From Dysgonomonas sp. ZJ279 (GTDB lineage Bacteria > Bacteroidota > Bacteroidia > Bacteroidales > Dysgonomonadaceae): a DNA stretch of 57,156 nucleotides. The DNA lies in the NCBI RefSeq assembly GCF_011039205.1, contig NZ_JAAKEL010000021.1:1-57156 (forward strand), given 5' to 3'. Position 1 is the first letter of the stretch. Every line of letters begins with the position of its first letter. Positions 4,493 to 13,398 of the stretch are shown in pieces. Under the pieces are notes generated by a model that did no database searches, was not told the DNA's origin, and saw only the letters and a list, made by a program, of their open reading frames with translations. Made by a program: the position numbers and the translations under genes.

Positions 4493-5203
4493 ATGAAAAA
4501 CATATTAGCCGATATCCGCCAGACACTCATTGATGGTATTGACGAAAATACACAAAAGACCAGTCAGAATTACTTTAAAGAACAAATAAAGTTTTATGGA
4601 GTAAGAGTGACACTTGTTACCAAGATCAGTAAAGATGTTTATGGTCTGATTAAAGAAAAATCTAAAAAAGAGATATACATCCTTTGTGATGAATTATGGC
4701 AATCAGGATATATCGAAGAATCGTTCATTGCCTGTAATCTATCCTACTATATACATGAAAGGTATGAGTCTGGAGACATCGAAGTATTCGAAAAATGGGT
4801 AAACCAATATGTAACCAACTGGGCATCATGCGATACCTTATGTAACCATACGATAGGAACATTTATCGAGATGTTTCCCCAACATATATCTATTTTGAAG
4901 GAGTGGGCTAAATCTCATAATCGTTGGATGAGGCGGGCATCTGCCGTAACCCTTATCATCCCCTCTAGGAAGGGCCTATTTCTTAATGATATATTTGATA
5001 TTGCAAACACTTTATTACTTGACGAAGATGACCTTGTTCAAAAAGGCTATGGCTGGATGCTTAAAGCTACAAGCGAAGCTCACCAGAAAGAAGTATTTGG
5101 CTATGTAATATCTAAGAAAGCAATAATGCCACGAACATCACTTAGATATGCTATAGAAAAAATGCCGCAAAGCATGCGGGCTGAAGCAATGAAAAAAGAA
5201 TAG
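4493..5203 (+). CDS. DNA alkylation repair protein (AlkD-like)
   Basis: A 236-residue all-helical protein that fits the AlkD/AlkC family of HEAT-like-repeat DNA glycosylases, which remove bulky or positively charged alkylated bases. Recognisable blocks are FKEQIKFYGVRVTLV, LWQSGYIEESFIACNL, FEKWVNQYVTNWASCDTLC, HNRWMRRASAVTLIIP and a late RYAIEKMP. The Trp/Asp pair in NWASCD and the Arg-rich RWMRR element are placed as in AlkD proteins. I chose ATG 4493 because it begins MKNILADIRQ; a longer TTG-initiated frame at 4427 adds residues unlike the family. It lies downstream of pheS with its own short gap. Confidence 0.88.
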   Translation: MKNILADIRQTLIDGIDENTQKTSQNYFKEQIKFYGVRVTLVTKISKDVYGLIKEKSKKEIYILCDELWQSGYIEESFIACNLSYYIHERYESGDIEVFEKWVNQYVTNWASCDTLCNHTIGTFIEMFPQHISILKEWAKSHNRWMRRASAVTLIIPSRKGLFLNDIFDIANTLLLDEDDLVQKGYGWMLKATSEAHQKEVFGYVISKKAIMPRTSLRYAIEKMPQSMRAEAMKKE

Positions 5204-5216
5204 AATATTTTATTCG

Positions 5217-6308
5217 TTAGTTCTTCACGCAACGAACAGAAAAATAATTGAATGTATTATTAGTTCCTTGAGCCATTCCTACAACATTCAAAGCAAAATA
5301 GTTTGCAAAACCGTTAACAGCGATACTACTCCAAAAATAGCCTGTTGCACCATAACTACCTACATTTGCTGATGCATAACCTGCTAGTAATGCATTAAAA
5401 CCACCTTCTGCATAAGAACGGCTAGCTCCTTGAGTAGCTGTTGCACTTAGCGGTACTTTAGTCGGAGACTTCATATTTCTCACATAATCCGCTGTACTAG
5501 CACTATTGCCATGTAAACAAGGATTATTGGTTACAGAAGCAATCAATGCCGCTTGCTCTACAACATTGGGTATATGCCAACCATTAGGACAAATACCTTG
5601 GTATTTAACACCTTCTACAGATGATGAAATATCTATTGTGCCAGTTGCTGCAAACCAGTTATAAAGAAATCCCATTTCCTTCATTTGATTGAAATAATAA
5701 GGATCCGCACCATCTATCAACCCTGTGCCATAAGGATTCGGATTAAGAGCTGGATAACACCAATAAGGTGTTGTGGTTCTCATCGCCCAAGGGCCCTTTA
5801 GTGTAGGAGGAGAAACAATCCCTGTATCATATTGTGTTGCACGCAGATTCTCAAGCATCCACCAATTATCACCGAATTTCCCAATGTGATAAGTTATTGG
5901 ATTAGCTGGATCTCTTTTATCTACTAATACATCTACTTCTGCCGGAAAGCCATTACCAATGGCATCCCATTCATTTCCATCCCAAACATGAAGACCTTTG
6001 AATAAATTCTTACACAGATTTTCATTTATATTGTAAACAACAAGCCCTGTGTGATCCGCATTGAGAACTTTGCTTATTGTATCTGCCACCGATAACATCG
6101 GATATAAAGCGGTACGGCTTTGCAGTGCTACCCGAGGTAAACCCAAACCTTTTTCAGAATTAGCATTACCGGTAAATGTGCCATCCTGTTCGAGATCAAG
6201 CAAAGAACCTTTAACCGGCATTTTTCCAGAACCGATTGTAACCTGTGCTTTAACCGACATATTGCAAAAAACAATAATCGAAAGAATTAAAAATAAAAAT
6301 TGCTTCAT
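5217..6308 (-). CDS. Exported FISUMP-domain protein
   Basis: The 363-residue product starts with a signal peptide (MKQFLFLILSIIVFCNMSVKAQ) cleaved probably after KAQ. The C-terminal ~230 residues carry the 'Fibrobacter succinogenes major paralogous' pattern: YHIGKFGDNWWMLENLRA, GFLYNWFAAT, CPNGWHIPN, GGFNALLAGY, GYFWSSI and the terminal SVRCVKN. Such proteins are extracytoplasmic; no enzymatic role is established. The N-terminal ~100 residues (VTIGSGKMPVKGSLLDLEQ) match the leader region seen in other Bacteroidales members. ATG 6308 is chosen over an upstream frame extension because it puts the signal peptide at the start. Confidence 0.85.
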   Translation of the reverse strand: MKQFLFLILSIIVFCNMSVKAQVTIGSGKMPVKGSLLDLEQDGTFTGNANSEKGLGLPRVALQSRTALYPMLSVADTISKVLNADHTGLVVYNINENLCKNLFKGLHVWDGNEWDAIGNGFPAEVDVLVDKRDPANPITYHIGKFGDNWWMLENLRATQYDTGIVSPPTLKGPWAMRTTTPYWCYPALNPNPYGTGLIDGADPYYFNQMKEMGFLYNWFAATGTIDISSSVEGVKYQGICPNGWHIPNVVEQAALIASVTNNPCLHGNSASTADYVRNMKSPTKVPLSATATQGASRSYAEGGFNALLAGYASANVGSYGATGYFWSSIAVNGFANYFALNVVGMAQGTNNTFNYFSVRCVKN

Positions 6309-6356
6309 AGTGGGAATGTGTAATTTATGTAAACAATAACACTCAAAATCAAACAT

Positions 6357-6650: not shown

Positions 6651-6680
6651 TTGTTTATAAAAAAAGAATCTATAACTTTG
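6651..6680 (+). promoter_or_regulatory. ilv operon promoter (Bacteroidota type)
   Basis: TTG at 6651-6653 and TAACTTTG at 6673-6680 are separated by 19 bp, matching the Bacteroidota -33/-7 consensus (TTTG, TAnnTTTG). Transcription should begin near 6686-6688, about 17 bp before the leader-peptide ATG at 6704. Confidence 0.75.
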
Positions 6681-6703
6681 TGTAATACTTTTAGATGATA
6701 ATA

Positions 6704-6766
6704 ATGACAAATTGTATTCTACATGTCCTCGTCCTCAATGTTCTCCTCGTCGATCAGAGCAATTGA
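6704..6766 (+). CDS. ilv leader peptide
   Basis: A 20-codon reading frame, too short for normal gene calling, ends in TGA at 6764-6766. Ten of its twenty residues are branched-chain: Ile5, Leu6, Val8, Leu9, Val10, Leu11, Val13, Leu14, Leu15, Val16 (core ILHVLVLNVLLV). The codons are mostly CTC and GTC, which are uncommon in the neighbouring AT-rich genes. It lies between a consensus promoter and a terminator hairpin and 118 bp upstream of ilvD. Its stop codon is inside the antiterminator arm (6764-6773). This is the arrangement of a transcription-attenuation leader sensing charged tRNA-Leu/Val/Ile. Confidence 0.85.
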   Translation: MTNCILHVLVLNVLLVDQSN

Positions 6767-6851
6767 GAAAGGTATGTACATATGATAATGTATAAATATA
6801 AGGAAATAACAACATAGACCTTTCTCATTTGCGTGAGAAAGGTTTTTTTTT
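6734..6851 (+). promoter_or_regulatory. ilv transcription attenuator (antiterminator/terminator)
   Basis: Four segments can pair in alternation. Segment 1 CTCAAT (6734-6739) is complementary to ATTGAG in segment 2 (6762-6767). Segment 2 TGAGAAAGGT (6764-6773) is perfectly complementary to segment 3 ACCTTTCTCA (6818-6827), forming an antiterminator. Segment 3 is also perfectly complementary to segment 4 TGAGAAAGGT (6834-6843), forming a 10-bp hairpin with loop TTTGCG and nine Ts (6843-6851), an intrinsic terminator. A ribosome stalled on the Leu/Val codons would leave segment 2 free and permit read-through into ilvD; one reaching the stop codon would mask segment 2 and allow termination. Confidence 0.88.
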
Positions 6852-6884
6852 AGCAACTATCAAGAGATAAAATAGAATAAAATT

Positions 6885-8714
6885 ATGGGATTCCAACTAA
6901 GAAGTTCTACAAGTACACAAGGACGCCGCATGGCAGGGGCTAGAGCCCTATGGCGAGCCAATGGCATGAAAGAAGAACAGATGGGCAAACCACTGATCGC
7001 AATAGTAAACTCTTTCACACAATTTGTTCCGGGACACGTACATCTGCACGAGATAGGGCAAAAAGTAAAAGCTGAGATAGAGGCATTAGGTTGCTTTGCA
7101 GCCGAATTTAATACAATAGCTATTGACGATGGTATCGCTATGGGACACGATGGTATGTTATATTCCCTACCCTCTCGCGACCTGATAGCCGATAGCATAG
7201 AATATATGGTAAACGCACACAAAGCCGATGCAATGGTATGCATCAGCAATTGCGATAAAATCACTCCGGGTATGTTAATGGCCTCGATGAGATTAAACAT
7301 CCCTACTATTTTCGTTTCGGGTGGACCGATGGAAGCCGGTGAGTTAGATAATAAACACCTCGACTTGATAGATGCCATGATAAAGGCAGCCGATGACAGT
7401 GTATCGGACAAAGAAGTAAACGCAATAGAACGTGCTGCATGCCCTACTTGCGGTTCATGCTCGGGTATGTTTACTGCCAACTCGATGAACTGTCTTAACG
7501 AAGCAATAGGTTTGGCACTACCGGGTAATGGAACAATCCTTGCGACACATGCCAACAGACTAAAACTTTTTCATGATGCAGCAAAACAAATAGTAGAAAG
7601 TGCATACCGCTACTATCGCGATGGAGATGAGTCGGTTCTTCCACGTAAAATCGCTACTAAACAAGCCTTCCTTAATGCTATGACACTTGATATAGCAATG
7701 GGTGGCTCTACCAATACAATACTTCACTTACTGGCAATAGCACAAGAGGCTGAAACAGATTTTACGATGGATGATATCGACAGACTGTCACGTAAAACTC
7801 CTTGCTTGTGCAAAGTTGCACCCAATACTCAAAAATATCATATACAAGATGTAAACCGTGCAGGCGGCATACTCAGTATAATGAACGAATTGGCAAAAGC
7901 TAATCTGATAGATACATCTACCAGTCGTGCTGACGGACTTACACTGGCACAGGCTATTGACAAATATGATATAACAAAAGCTAATCCATCGGAAGAGGCT
8001 ATAAAATTATATAAATCTGCACCGGGCAATAAATTTAACTTGGTGATGGGTTCACAAGACAATTATTATAAAGAACTCGATACTGATAGAGCCGAAGGGT
8101 GTATTCGCGACGCAGAACATGCCTATACTAAAGATGGCGGCTTAGCTATCCTTAAAGGAAATATAGCACTTGATGGCTGTGTAGTTAAAACTGCAGGTGT
8201 AGACGAGAGCATATTCAAATTTTCAGGTATAGCCAAAGTATTTCATTCTCAAGATGCTGCATGCGAAGGAATCCTAAGAGACGAGGTAGTAGCAGGTGAT
8301 GTTGTAGTTATTACATACGAAGGACCGAAAGGTGGCCCTGGTATGCAAGAGATGTTATACCCAACCTCATATATAAAATCAAAACATTTAGGTAAAGAAT
8401 GTGCTTTGATTACCGATGGTCGGTTCTCAGGTGGTACATCAGGGCTATCTATCGGCCATGTTTCGCCCGAAGCAGCATCAGGAGGAGCAATCGGGCTAGT
8501 TCGTAATGGCGACATGATCGAAATAGATATACCGAATCGCTCTATAAATGTGAAGTTGACTGATGCCGAATTGCAATCGCGCCGCCAAGAGGAAGAAGCG
8601 AAGGGTCAGAATGCATTTAAGCCAAACAGAGAAAGGTATGTATCGAAAGCACTGAGAGCTTATGCAAGCATGGTTAGCTCAGCAGATTTGGGTGCTATAC
8701 GTATTATAGAATAA
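6885..8714 (+). CDS. ilvD: Dihydroxy-acid dehydratase
   Basis: The 609-residue Fe-S enzyme dehydrates 2,3-dihydroxy-isovalerate and -methylvalerate to the 2-keto acids, the third step of Val/Ile synthesis. Visible hallmarks are [17 protein letters not shown] (Cys123), [29 protein letters not shown] (Cys186 and nearby cysteines), [13 protein letters not shown] and the C-terminal [20 protein letters not shown]. Length is typical. It is the first structural gene after the attenuator; a 147-bp gap separates it from ilvB, without an obvious terminator, so the operon is expected to continue. Confidence 0.98.
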
Positions 8715-8861
8715 ATGAATATTACTATTCCACTGTTTTTTAACTTGGGCTAACTATGTATATAATAAAAAACAATATATACAATAGAAAGTACAAAAAC
8801 AGAGTTTGAATACAGAAAGTGAAATATTTAATCAAAGTTTCATAAGAAGAAAAATATAACC

Positions 8862-10562
8862 ATGAATAAAGAAATTACAGGAAGTGAAGCTCTTTTACAA
8901 TCGTTGGTAAACGAAGGGGCAGATACCATATTCGGGTATCCGGGTGGTGCCATCATGCCCGTATTCGATTGTTTATATGATTATAAAGATAAGATAAATC
9001 ATATCCTTGTTCGTCATGAACAGGGAGCAACTCATGCCGCACAAGGCTATGCACGTACTTCGGGCAAAGTAGGTATAGCATTAGTGACATCAGGTCCCGG
9101 TGCTACAAATGCCGTAACAGGCATCGCAGATGCTATGATAGACAGCACTCCACTGATCGTGATATCGGGACAGGTAGCTTCGTCACTATTGGGTAGCGAT
9201 GCTTTTCAGGAGGCTGATGTAGTTGGTATTACGCAACCAATAACCAAGTGGGCATATCAGATACGCCGCCCCGAAGATATACCATGGGCAGTAGCCAGAG
9301 CATTTTATATTGCCTCCACAGGTCGTCCCGGTCCGGTTATACTCGATATAACCAAAGATGCCCAATTTGGTAAAATGCCAAGTTATGAATACAAGAAAGA
9401 AACTTTCATACGTAGCTATCAACCTAAACCGGAAGTTCGCGATTCAGAAATAGAGGCAGCTGCGCAGATTATAAATCAAGCCAAGAGACCTTTGGCATTG
9501 GTAGGGCAAGGCGTAATACTTGGCAGTGCAGAAAAAGAGCTGCTTGCTCTTCTCAACAAATCGGGTATCCCTGCCGCATCTACAGTATTAGGACTTTCAG
9601 CTATCCCAACAAATCATCCGTTGAATGTGGGAATGTTGGGTATGCACGGTAATATTGGACCTAATAAAATGACAAACGAATGCGATGTGCTTATTGCCAT
9701 CGGCATGCGTTTCGACGACCGTGTAACGGGCGATCTAAAGACTTATGCCAAACAAGCTAAAGTAATACATTTCGATATAGACAAAGCTGAAATTAATAAG
9801 AACGTAGCTGTAACAGCCCGTGTATTGGGTGACGTGAAAGAAACATTACCCAGAGTTACAGAGTTGCTTCAAGACAATAGTCATACCGAATGGCTAAAAG
9901 GTTTTAAAGCATGTTACAAAAAAGAATACGATGTTGTTATCAATAACGAACTCCATCCTACTTCGGGTCAGCTCAAGATGGGCGAGGTAATCAATAAAGT
10001 ATCTGAAGCCACAGGCAACGACGCAGTTATGGTAACCGACGTAGGCCAACATCAGATGATGGGTGTTCGCTACTTCAAATATAACCAGACACGCAGTGTA
10101 GTTACATCAGGCGGACTAGGTACAATGGGATTCGGGCTTCCAGCCGCTATTGGTGCTAAATACGGAACTCCCGATCGCACAGTATGCCTCTTTGTCGGTG
10201 ATGGCGGTATACAGATGACAATACAGGAACTAGGCACAATCATGCAATACGATGTCGATGTAAAGATAATTATTCTCAATAATCACTTCTTAGGCATGGT
10301 ACGCCAATGGCAGGAATTATTTTTCGACGAAAGATATTCCGAAACTGTAATGAAGAATCCGGACTTTGTAAAGATATCCGAAGCATATAGCATCCCTGCC
10401 AAAAAGGTAGAAACACGTGAGGAACTTGATCTGGCAATAGCTGAAATGCTTAGCCATAAAGGACCTTACTTATTGGATGTACAGGTTGAAACAAAAGGAA
10501 TGGTATACCCGATGGTACCTGCCGGAACTTCTGTAACAAATATATTGCTGGGAAATGAGTAA
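8862..10562 (+). CDS. ilvB: Acetolactate synthase, large (catalytic) subunit
   Basis: The 566-residue ThDP-dependent enzyme condenses pyruvate with pyruvate or 2-ketobutyrate. The N-terminal domain has FGYPGGAIMPVFD and the catalytic Glu in RHEQGATHAAQGYAR; the ThDP-binding motif is GDGGIQMTIQELGTIMQY followed by IIILNNHFLGMVRQWQ. Central FAD-domain residues (GMLGMHGNIGPNK, DVLIAIGMRFDDRVTG) are present, consistent with a true anabolic AHAS. Its 3' end overlaps the VOC gene by 8 bp, implying translational coupling. Confidence 0.98.
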   Translation: MNKEITGSEALLQSLVNEGADTIFGYPGGAIMPVFDCLYDYKDKINHILVRHEQGATHAAQGYARTSGKVGIALVTSGPGATNAVTGIADAMIDSTPLIVISGQVASSLLGSDAFQEADVVGITQPITKWAYQIRRPEDIPWAVARAFYIASTGRPGPVILDITKDAQFGKMPSYEYKKETFIRSYQPKPEVRDSEIEAAAQIINQAKRPLALVGQGVILGSAEKELLALLNKSGIPAASTVLGLSAIPTNHPLNVGMLGMHGNIGPNKMTNECDVLIAIGMRFDDRVTGDLKTYAKQAKVIHFDIDKAEINKNVAVTARVLGDVKETLPRVTELLQDNSHTEWLKGFKACYKKEYDVVINNELHPTSGQLKMGEVINKVSEATGNDAVMVTDVGQHQMMGVRYFKYNQTRSVVTSGGLGTMGFGLPAAIGAKYGTPDRTVCLFVGDGGIQMTIQELGTIMQYDVDVKIIILNNHFLGMVRQWQELFFDERYSETVMKNPDFVKISEAYSIPAKKVETREELDLAIAEMLSHKGPYLLDVQVETKGMVYPMVPAGTSVTNILLGNE

Positions 10563-10947
10563 TCTATCTAGAATCCATCATATTGCTATTATTTGCTCGG
10601 ATTATGAGCAATCGAAAGATTTCTATGTCAACAAATTAGGATTAAAGATTATATTAGAAACTTATCGTGCCGAACGAAATTCGTATAAACTGGATTTGGC
10701 TGTTGGCGAGTGTGGACAAATAGAACTATTTTCGTTCGATAATCCCCCACCCCGACCTAGTTTTCCCGAAGCACGAGGATTAAGACATCTGGCTTTTGCG
10801 ACTAGTGATATAGAAAAAGAAATAGCTGATCTGGAAGCAAAAGGAATTAGTGTTGAGCCGATAAGAATAGATGAATTAACAAACTGTAGATTTGCTTTTT
10901 TTAGTGATCCCGATGGTTTACCATTAGAGTTGTATGAAACAAAATAA
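10555..10947 (+). CDS. VOC-superfamily metalloprotein (glyoxalase-like)
   Basis: A 130-residue single VOC unit of two beta-alpha-beta-beta-beta modules: LSRIHHIAIICSDYEQSKDFYVNKLGL and LRHLAFATSDIEKEIADLEAKG. Candidate metal ligands occupy the usual places: His in HHIAII, Glu in QIELFSF, His in LRHLAF and Glu in PLELYETK. It most resembles the YaeR/GloA2-like group, whose substrate is not established. The gene overlaps ilvB by 8 bp and ends exactly where ilvN begins (TAA followed by ATG), so it is embedded in the ilv operon. Its role there is unknown. Confidence 0.85.
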   Translation: MSNLSRIHHIAIICSDYEQSKDFYVNKLGLKIILETYRAERNSYKLDLAVGECGQIELFSFDNPPPRPSFPEARGLRHLAFATSDIEKEIADLEAKGISVEPIRIDELTNCRFAFFSDPDGLPLELYETK

Positions 10948-11505
10948 ATGTCTGTTATGGAAAATAAAACATTATATACAGTAACTATATTTTCAGAAAA
11001 CACCGTTGGCTTACTAAGCCAGGTAACAAGTGTGTTTACTCGTCGACAATTGAATATTGAAACACTTTCAGTATCCCCCTCTGCAATACCGGGCATACAC
11101 AAGTTTACAATAACAATCTTTTGTGATGAAGAAATGATCAAAAAGGTCGTTCTCCAAATAGACAAACGTGTCGATGTACTGAAATCGTATTATAACACCG
11201 ATGACGAACTGATACATCAGGAGATAGCACTTTACAAGCTTTCTACTCCCGATTTCTTAAAAATAGACTCGGCAGAAGCACTTATCCGTACATACAATGC
11301 ACGCATTCTCGAAATTAACGAAGTATGCGTGGTTATCGAAAAAACCGGTCATCATGCCGAAACTCAAGCCTTGTTTAAGGATTTGAGTGAAAAGATCGGT
11401 GTGCTACAATTTATCCGTTCGGGACGTGTAGCTATAACAAAATCGAAGATTGAACGATTGAGTGACATGCTTTCAGAATTAGATAAAAAAACATTAAATC
11501 AGTAA
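10948..11505 (+). CDS. ilvN: Acetolactate synthase, small (regulatory) subunit
   Basis: The 185-residue protein begins with an ACT domain (TLYTVTIFSENTVGLLSQVTSVFTRRQLNIETLSV), the site of feedback inhibition by Val in characterised AHAS enzymes, followed by the C-terminal activation domain (LYKLSTPD, VVIEKTGHHAETQALFKDL, FIRSGRVAITK). The start overlaps no sequence but abuts the VOC stop codon; ATG at 10957 (MENKTLY) is an alternative. It would bind and stimulate IlvB. Confidence 0.95.
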   Translation: MSVMENKTLYTVTIFSENTVGLLSQVTSVFTRRQLNIETLSVSPSAIPGIHKFTITIFCDEEMIKKVVLQIDKRVDVLKSYYNTDDELIHQEIALYKLSTPDFLKIDSAEALIRTYNARILEINEVCVVIEKTGHHAETQALFKDLSEKIGVLQFIRSGRVAITKSKIERLSDMLSELDKKTLNQ

Positions 11506-11517
11506 TTTATTAGATTA

Positions 11518-12255
11518 ATGCAAGCTCCTATAGGAATATACGAATTTAGAATAGACGCATATCTTACAGATTTTAGAGGTAAAGCAACTCTACCGATGAT
11601 CGGAGGCTTTATGCTACAAGCTGCAACAAAACATGCCGAAGAACGTGGGTTTGGCTATTCGTTTATGACAGCAAAGAAAAGAGCATGGGTACTGTCACGA
11701 ATGGCGATAGAGATATTCGAATATCCCAAAAATGATAGTATATTTATTATCAAAACCTGGGTCGCTGGCGTAAACAGGCTATTTACAGAGCGTTATTTTT
11801 CATTTGAAAACAGCGAAGGTAAAGAAATCGGTTTTGCTAAATCACTATGGGCCTTGATAGACCTTGTGAGCCGTAAACCGACTAATGTACTGGAACTTGA
11901 TGGACTCACGAGCTATATAGATAATAATAAAAGTTGCCCGATAGAAGGCATGACAAAAATCCCTGTATTAAAAGAGAATTATACTAAAGAAGGCGATTTC
12001 GTTGTTAGGTATAGTGATGTAGATATTAATAAACATTTGAACAGTATGAAATATATTGAGCATTTTGTAGATATATTTGATATTGATATGTTCAGAGAAA
12101 AAGAAATAGAACGCTTCGAGATAAATTATGTATCAGAGGGTCGCTATGGAGCGAAATTAGATATACTCAAAAGAGAAGAAAGCGATTCTAAATTTATTTT
12201 AGAGATGAAAGAAGGTGACACCGATGTGTGTTCATCAAGAGTGATTTGGAAATAA
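11518..12255 (+). CDS. Acyl-ACP thioesterase
   Basis: The 245-residue protein is a double hot-dog thioesterase of the FatA/FatB (PF01643) type. The N-terminal half shows LTDFRGKATLPMIGGFMLQAATKHAEERG and the WVLSRMAIEI strand; the second half has the catalytic/substrate region RYSDVDINKHLNSMKYIEHFVD with the Asp, Asn and His expected in this family. It would release fatty acids from acyl-ACP in the cytoplasm. It sits 12 bp after ilvN and 41 bp before ilvC, so it is co-transcribed with branched-chain amino acid genes. Confidence 0.9.
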   Translation: MQAPIGIYEFRIDAYLTDFRGKATLPMIGGFMLQAATKHAEERGFGYSFMTAKKRAWVLSRMAIEIFEYPKNDSIFIIKTWVAGVNRLFTERYFSFENSEGKEIGFAKSLWALIDLVSRKPTNVLELDGLTSYIDNNKSCPIEGMTKIPVLKENYTKEGDFVVRYSDVDINKHLNSMKYIEHFVDIFDIDMFREKEIERFEINYVSEGRYGAKLDILKREESDSKFILEMKEGDTDVCSSRVIWK

Positions 12256-12296
12256 TTTTCAGACTAAATAATATTTTATTAAACAATTAATCAATT

Positions 12297-13343
12297 ATGG
12301 CAGAAATGAATTTTGGTGGCACATTAGAACAAGTTGCTACCCGTGATGAATTCCCTTTGGAAAAAGCAAGAGAAGTACTAAAAGACGAAACTATTGCAGT
12401 TATTGGCTATGGCGTACAAGGTCCCGGTCAAGCACTTAACCTACGCGATAACGGATTCAATGTAATCATTGGCCAACGCAAAGGTGGCAAAACTTGGGAT
12501 AAAGCTATTGCTGACGGATGGGTTCCGGGAGAAACATTATTTGATATAGAAGAAGCTGCCGAAAAAGGTACAATCATTCAATACCTATTGTCTGATGCTG
12601 CTCAAATAGAAGTATGGCCAAGACTTAAACCGTATCTGACTGCGGGTAAAGCTCTTTACTTCTCTCATGGCTTTGGTATCACATACAAAGAACGTACAAA
12701 CATTATTCCTCCTGCTGATATTGACGTAATCCTTGTTGCTCCTAAAGGATCGGGAACAAGCCTTCGTCGTATGTTCCTTGAAGGACGTGGATTGAATTCT
12801 AGCTATGCTATTTTCCAAGATGCTACAGGACGTGCTAAAGAACGTGTTATCGCTCTTGGTATCGGTGTAGGTTCAGGATATTTGTTCGAAACAGATTTCA
12901 AACGTGAAGTATATTCTGACCTTACAGGTGAGCGTGGAACATTGATGGGTGCTATACAAGGTATCCTTCTTGCTCAATACGAAGTATTACGTGAAAACGG
13001 TCATTCTCCATCAGAAGCATTTAATGAAACAGTAGAAGAATTGACTCAATCGTTAATGCCTCTTTTCGCTGAAAAAGGTATGGACTGGATGTATGCAAAC
13101 TGCTCTACTACAGCTCAACGTGGCGCACTAGACTGGATGACTCCTTTCCACGATGCAACTAAACCTGTATTTGCTAAATTATACTCGGAAGTGGCTAACG
13201 GAAACGAAGCTCAACGTTCTATCGATACAAATTCAAAACCTGATTACCGCGAAAAACTAGAAGAAGAACTTAAAGCTCTTCGCGAAAGTGAAATGTGGCG
13301 TACAGGTGCAGTTGTTAGACAACTAAGACCAGAGAATAACTAA
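12297..13343 (+). CDS. ilvC: Ketol-acid reductoisomerase (NADP+)
   Basis: The 348-residue enzyme converts acetolactate and acetohydroxybutyrate to dihydroxy acids. The Rossmann motif VIGYGVQGPGQALNLRDNG is followed by the NADPH-selecting loop GQRKGGKTW, the LLSDAAQIEVWPRLKPYL segment, APKGSG, and the metal-binding DLTGERGTLMG. The C-terminal helical domain includes VEELTQSLMPLFAEKGMDWM and NCSTTAQRGALDW. It is the last gene of the operon; a strong terminator follows 24 bp after the stop. Confidence 0.98.
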   Translation: MAEMNFGGTLEQVATRDEFPLEKAREVLKDETIAVIGYGVQGPGQALNLRDNGFNVIIGQRKGGKTWDKAIADGWVPGETLFDIEEAAEKGTIIQYLLSDAAQIEVWPRLKPYLTAGKALYFSHGFGITYKERTNIIPPADIDVILVAPKGSGTSLRRMFLEGRGLNSSYAIFQDATGRAKERVIALGIGVGSGYLFETDFKREVYSDLTGERGTLMGAIQGILLAQYEVLRENGHSPSEAFNETVEELTQSLMPLFAEKGMDWMYANCSTTAQRGALDWMTPFHDATKPVFAKLYSEVANGNEAQRSIDTNSKPDYREKLEEELKALRESEMWRTGAVVRQLRPENN

Positions 13344-13367
13344 TAGTTAATCTGCACTATATAAGGA

Positions 13368-13398
13368 AGGCTACTTGAGAAATCGAGTAGCCTTTTTT
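13368..13398 (+). terminator. Terminator of the ilv operon
   Basis: AGGCTACTTGA (13368-13378), loop GAAA, TCGAGTAGCCT (13383-13393), one G-U pair, then six Ts. It closes the operon beginning at ilvD. Confidence 0.9.

Follow-up and report, generated by a model that had tools for sequence, protein, structure and literature searches.

A probable ribosome-mediated transcription attenuator ahead of ilvD in Dysgonomonas sp. ZJ279 and its counterparts in the Bacteroidales

The leader region of ilvD in Dysgonomonas sp. ZJ279 is very probably a classical ribosome-mediated transcription attenuator. This reading is founded on sequence, on computed alternative pairings, on conservation, on covariation and on codon bias. 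The analysis starts from one stretch of 57,156 nucleotides, called here the window, in which all parts of the element lie on the + strand, and extends to related loci in the family, in the order and beyond.

The element begins with a putative promoter of the Bacteroidota type (6651–6680), in which TTG (6651–6653) is separated by a spacer of 19 nt from TAACTTTG (6673–6680). It is followed by a putatively translated leader ORF, MTNCILHVLVLNVLLVDQSN (6704–6766), running from an ATG at 6704 to a TGA at 6764–6766. Ten of its 20 codons specify isoleucine, leucine or valine (I/L/V), the amino acids of the operon ilvD, B, N, C that it precedes. An alternative in-frame ATG at 6695 would give a leader of 23 codons; of the two starts, the one at 6704 aligns in relatives. 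Two runs are candidate regulatory codons: GTC CTC GTC CTC (6725–6736) and GTT CTC CTC GTC, that is, Val-Leu-Leu-Val (6740–6751). Both are marked by codon enrichment, and a modelled stall at either leaves the next part of the device, strand 2, exposed. Strand 2 (TGAGAAAGGT, 6764–6773) is the 5' arm of the predicted antiterminator and has the leader stop codon as its first bases. Strand 3 (ACCTTTCTCA, 6818–6827) is common to antiterminator and terminator, while strand 4 (again TGAGAAAGGT, 6834–6843) and a T-tract (6843–6851) constitute the 3' part of an intrinsic terminator. On folding, the terminator hairpin (6816–6845) reaches -15.8 kcal/mol and, with its T-tract, lies between the leader ORF and ilvD. 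A sequence-only reading had described the promoter, the 20-codon leader with its ten Ile/Leu/Val codons, the three 10-mers and the T-tract, as well as a leader stop codon inside the first 10-mer, and every one of these was recovered in its place. Folding added a fourth strand that was absent from that description: strand 1, or protector arm (about 6734–6744), which pairs with 6756–6767 in the minimum-energy and centroid folds of the window. In both folds, the protector hairpin 1:2 overlaps the control codons. Two further stretches outside the pairing strands, between 6773 and 6817, are seen again in many family sequences: TATGTATA behind strand 2 and AAGGAA ahead of strand 3.

The first gene behind the attenuator is ilvD, encoding dihydroxy-acid dehydratase (6885–8714; NCBIfam NF009103). 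It is followed on the same strand by ilvB (8862–10562), a YaeR-like VOC (glyoxalase-fold) gene (10555–10947), ilvN (10948–11505), an acyl-ACP thioesterase gene (11518–12255; Pfam PF01643 and PF20791) and ilvC (12297–13343), with a terminator-like hairpin behind the latter (13366–13395). The genes from ilvD through ilvC (6885–13343) probably form one operon. Since the thioesterase gene sits between ilvN and ilvC, it may be under the same amino acid control.

The effect of ribosome position was modelled by masked folding, in which the RNA is exposed from the start of the A-site codon plus 12 nt, equal to the start of the P-site codon plus 15 nt; a ribosome footprint of 12–15 nt from the P site has been described (PMC3641672). 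As long as the A site lies no further than Asp17 (6752), the full 10 bp antiterminator remains possible. At Gln18, 7 bp are left, and from Ser19 to the stop codon there are none, so that a ribosome at the leader stop masks the 5' arm of an antiterminator that is mutually exclusive with the terminator. Hairpin 1:2 retains no pairs with the A site from Asn12 on. A modelled stall from Asn12 to Asp17, a range that includes the Val-Leu-Leu-Val run, keeps hairpin 1:2 open and the antiterminator free to form. These predicted alternative pairings agree with the earlier proposal that ribosome position selects antiterminator or terminator. The antiterminator (-15.0 kcal/mol) and the terminator are nearly equal in energy, and in RNA made up to strand 3 the antiterminator is predicted to form even when the ribosome is still at an early codon or when there is no ribosome. 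Therefore, equilibrium folding does not predict termination without translation, and in this model the outcome in the absence of translation depends on kinetics.

From these elements we infer that the leader is translated, that the ribosome can stall on it, that transcription can terminate ahead of ilvD depending on amino acid supply and that the operon is read as a single transcript. RNA polymerase would start a few bases past 6680 and produce a leader RNA of about 165 nt, with a ribosome following the polymerase and translating the 20-codon leader. When charged Leu, Val (and Ile) tRNA is plentiful, the ribosome would reach the stop codon and cover strand 2; strand 3 would pair with strand 4 and transcription would stop at about 6848–6851, where the 3' end of a short RNA is predicted. 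Under a shortage of Leu or Val, the ribosome would stall on the GTC/CTC codons, thereby opening hairpin 1:2 and freeing strand 2. The latter would pair with strand 3 while strand 4 is still to be transcribed, no terminator would form and ilvD-ilvB-(VOC)-ilvN-(thioesterase)-ilvC would be transcribed.

Not every part of the device is equally distinctive. A triple of 10-mers of the form X / reverse complement of X / X, with each step at most 90 nt, occurs once in the window, at the ilv site, and in none of 50 dinucleotide shuffles of the window. A fixed detector was defined that requires a leader with at least 5 of 8 codons for I/L/V, a hairpin of -7.5 kcal/mol or better with a T-tract, and an antiterminator of at least 7 bp near the leader stop; it finds a match upstream of just one of 47 window ORFs, which is ilvD. 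The I/L/V-rich leader is not decisive alone, because at least half of the residues are I/L/V in 10 of the window's 287 ATG ORFs of 15–30 aa. Neither is the promoter, since 6651–6680 is missing from the list of an E. coli-type sigma-70 promoter scan (5 sites versus 4.3 expected). The promoter assignment draws on the Bacteroidota motif and on its presence in relatives: TTG-N17-21-TAnnTTTG, which we take to be the Bacteroides promoter consensus, stands ahead of the leader in 34/34 detected family loci.

Within the family, ilvD is present in 91 of 101 genomes, and 89 upstream regions were read (those of G042 and G077, without a start, were left out, and that of L164 comprises just 67 nt). The detector matches 34 of these regions and finds nothing in the other 55. 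The 34 loci, picked by a detector that itself demands an I/L/V-rich short ORF, have leaders of 18–25 codons and a distance of 91–157 nt from leader stop to ilvD start. Leader, antiterminator and terminator occur in the same order with similar spacing. Conservation of the leader frame in the ilvD 5' regions of relatives, the check that the sequence-only reading had called for, is found across these loci: the leaders can be aligned in frame, and all their indels are multiples of three, save in the divergent L113. Ten of the 55 match-free regions, with ilvD in a leu operon, were traced further upstream. In eight of them the first gene, which is leuA-like, has an I/L/V leader with terminator and antiterminator ahead of it; of the remaining two, L175 has no match and L178 offers just 186 nt upstream. 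An additional match in L179, which precedes a different ORF and has a hairpin of -8.1 kcal/mol, was left out of this count. In one typed region, the genes ahead of ilvD are leuA-leuC-leuD-cimA-like-leuB.

The device is also found well beyond the family. Among 80 named loci, 35 are matched, two of which (L074 and L108) were judged spurious and removed before later counts, and 45 are not. The matches include Bacteroides graminisolvens, Phocaeicola, Heminiphilus, Tannerella and Paludibacter, and further Azobacteroides, Prolixibacteraceae, Alistipes and Marinifilum; of ten Prevotella/Prevotellaceae loci, one is matched (L037). There are no matches in 16 named loci of other phyla (Desulfobulbaceae and kin, Spirochaetes and Treponema, Fibrobacter, Akkermansiaceae, Acidobacteria and Gallionellaceae), three of which have less than 200 nt upstream. 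Shuffles are matched in 13 of 1610 cases. A sample of the order comprised 295 genomes, of which 119 carry this IlvD type and 176 have no match at E<=1e-150. From the 119, 107 regions were read; those of G000, G013 and G092, already in the family set, two at contig edges and seven others were left out, and G034 was read in both sets. The detector matches 82 of the 107 regions, in 39 of 47 families, and finds none in 25, versus 10 matches in 535 shuffles. In 68 of the 82, the leader stop codon starts between -10 and +12 nt from the start of strand 2. L277, still within the 82, looks spurious, as do the second matches of L218 and L238. The named and order sets share some genomes, and their counts are therefore not to be summed. 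Outside the class, the 30 best-scoring of 68 matching phylum-sample genomes, none from the same class, were considered; four matches among them were judged spurious, having weak hairpins or poor T-tracts. Three loci of the same phylum and another class (L297, L299 and L300) have I/L/V-rich short ORFs with an LLGII motif upstream of ilvD. No convincing terminator was found near these ORFs, which possibly represent another kind of leader.

The conservation bears on a rival explanation, in which the hairpin merely ends the transcript of an upstream gene or of a stand-alone small RNA, as an ordinary terminator, and the leader ORF and the first 10-mer are incidental. Intrinsic terminators are common in the window, and the ten I/L/V-rich short ORFs mentioned above would allow for an incidental leader. 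However, upstream of the element the listed + strand genes stop at 5203, and the intervening gene (5217–6356) is on the - strand, so that the terminator serves no earlier listed + strand gene. The constant order and similar spacing of the parts in the 34 family loci, and their recurrence in 39 of the 47 families of the order that were read, at a rate far above that of the shuffles, also speak against this explanation, which we consider very unlikely.

For the attenuator, the two competing helices make a further prediction on how the strands should vary. In an alignment of the 34 family loci (33 distinct), the terminator helix 3:4 is paired in 98.8% of cells. Two pairs are changed on both sides, a number reached by 159 of 500 shuffles, and 8 cells are changed, which is reached by none of 500. 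The antiterminator helix 2:3 is paired in 99.4% of cells, with no change on both sides and a covariation score that is reached by 433 of 500 shuffles. In a wider set of 67 loci, strands 2, 3 and 4 do change in concert, namely in more distant Bacteroidales. Counting just the loci where both pairings hold at a position, the triplets 2-3-4 at base 4 of strand 3 are A-T-A in 51, G-T-A in 3, G-C-G in 3, T-A-T in 1 and T-G-C in 1 (59 of 67 loci). At base 10 they are T-A-T in 39 and G-C-G in 4, and at base 9 G-C-G in 58 and A-T-A in 2. Such three-way changes are the pattern expected of two competing helices with a common strand, in loci found by a detector that itself demands complementarity. The covarying stems that had been suggested as a check are thus seen as concerted changes in distant Bacteroidales, while helix 2:3 shows no double change within the family; support for this helix comes from the wider set of loci, in which the strands were chosen by the same complementarity-requiring detector.

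Codon usage in the leaders is strongly biased. CTC and GTC are the least used codons for Leu and Val, respectively, in 41 window ORFs (7.6% and 9.5%), but account for 63% of Leu and 82% of Val codons in the 34 family leaders. In a simulation that takes the codons of related leaders as independent and each locus's own ilvD as reference, GTC is observed 57 times versus 8.1 expected in 30 family loci and 71 versus 24.8 in 33 named loci. CTC is observed 91 times versus 14.8 in the family loci and is not enriched in the named loci (16 versus 23.5 expected), where CTA is (24 versus 3.8). ATT exceeds expectation in both sets (62 versus 24.3 in the family and 89 versus 54.0 in the named loci). The mean probability that the wobble base is paired amounts to 0.38–0.55 for GTC and CTC and to 0.82 for ATT in the family; RNA structure may therefore be a cause of the bias. 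As to the earlier suggestion that clustered CTC/GTC codons reflect tuning, the enrichment of the rarest codons bears it out in part, and the pairing values are compatible with tuning as well as with RNA constraint. In PMC1183508, leader codon bias is described as strong and leu as the paradigm for rare codons, an explanation called an oversimplification there, and starvation-sensitive codons are preferred over rarity as the determinant. By analogy, the same account may hold for the ilvD leader. In a tRNA list of the genome that covers 38 places and may be incomplete, Leu tRNAs with anticodons GAG, TAG, TAA and CAA and a Val tRNA with TAC are present, and a Val GAC tRNA is not seen, with one gene unassigned.

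Alternative hairpins by themselves do not identify the sensor. A riboswitch, a T-box or an RNA-binding protein could switch both hairpins, with the leader peptide being secondary. Against this, the element has no Rfam match at or above a gathering score. The scan of the window (Rfam release 15) gave just two tRNAs at gathering score and no T-box or riboswitch, and a relaxed scan of the element gave eight sub-threshold matches, taken as chance, of which PyrR has most bits (26.9 of 54 gathering). The loci L181, L184, L087, L283 and L171 likewise gave no match at gathering score. Moreover, leaders are rich in I/L/V across the order despite differing sequences, and leaders in the same genome fit the gene behind them. 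A Leu/Ile leader, MEMTLHSSIISTLILLWKNLE, with a terminator and a 7 bp antiterminator stands before leuA (L181 1323–1457, G000:C56; leuA by NCBIfam), and a His leader, MKKTIFHHHCELLTTGK, containing HHH, also with a terminator and a 7 bp antiterminator, before hisG (L184 1348–1457, G000:C12). A sensor other than the translated leader is accordingly very improbable. When strands 2 and 3 were combined into one DNA pattern, the ilvD site was its sole match in the genome, so that a separate search at the protein level was needed for the leu copy. The covariance model of Bacteroid-trp RNA (RF01692) has no match in the window and one in the same genome, covering a leader identified by eye, MQFQLLNTYWWWRSQLKKS, with WWW, and a terminator; a fragment of the gene behind it has no match at 1e-60. 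Least probable of all is that the leader acts on ilvD by translational coupling or reinitiation and not by transcription termination, since, even though leader genes in Bacteroidetes peak at 11–14 bp from the next gene (PMC4833913), the leader stop here lies 91–157 nt from ilvD in the 34 family loci, with a terminator and T-tract in between.

Attenuators may also be stacked. Two leader-terminator units in series occur in 4 of 187 order and named loci: L087, L099 and L100 (Marinifilum, Labilibaculum and a Marinifilaceae MAG) and L283, from another family. In the first three, the units span about -410 to -70 before ilvD, and the first leader contains Ile, Val and Leu codons, the second Ile and Val only; the antiterminators have just 6 bp in L099 and in the first unit of L100. 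Taking these observations together, it is possible to propose, tentatively, that attenuation is an old, order-wide control of branched-chain, his, leu and trp operons in the Bacteroidales, that the codons used in the leaders (GTC with CTC or CTA) are the most starvation-sensitive ones and that stacked attenuators in some lineages act as an AND gate. If so, both units would have to be relieved for expression, and the answer to Ile or Val shortage would be fuller than that to Leu shortage. It would also follow that the Bacteroidales need a close coupling of translation to transcription.

Classical attenuation needs a ribosome close behind RNA polymerase. As the complete device, codon bias and three-way changes included, is found in 39 of 47 families read that have this ilvD type, coupling in the Bacteroidales becomes directly testable with simple reporters. 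Furthermore, amino acid synthesis is predicted to be under such control in common gut genera with matches (Bacteroides, Phocaeicola and Alistipes), and the ilvD element is a candidate for an Rfam family. A full-text literature search, to which subscription papers were mostly inaccessible, found no description of the ilv element. Vitreschak et al. reportedly predicted attenuators, the same kind of device, in Bacteroidetes/Chlorobi in 2004. In 2010, the authors of one paper stated that they knew of no demonstrated leader-peptide system beyond the Proteobacteria and Actinobacteria (PMC2965389). In Bacteroides thetaiotaomicron, short ORFs reminiscent of leader peptides are described (PMC7366714), and for Flavobacterium psychrophilum there are strong clues for leader-peptide attenuation before amino acid biosynthesis operons (PMC9723704). 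The latter leaders are from the same phylum as the ilvD element, but from the Flavobacteriaceae. The phylum is also said to lack Shine-Dalgarno sequences (PMC6847099). Bacteroid-trp RNA is marked as cis-regulatory in Bacteroidetes (PMC2864571); it has Trp codons and another sequence, and the ilvD element does not match its model.

In the enterobacterial ilvGMEDA, ilvBN and leu operons, an I/L/V-rich leader is combined with four RNA strands and a terminator with a T-tract, and all these features are shared by the ilvD element. These operons are listed as attenuators in PMC1183508, and the codon bias is strong in enterobacterial leaders as it is in the ilvD element. The mechanism is that of textbook attenuation, to which the ilvD element adds a further case. 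In view of this and of the prior Bacteroidetes leaders, it is therefore an addition to a known class, which differs from the enterobacterial members in its occurrence in another phylum, in the stop codon inside strand 2 and in the order ilvD-B-VOC-N-thioesterase-C of the genes behind it.
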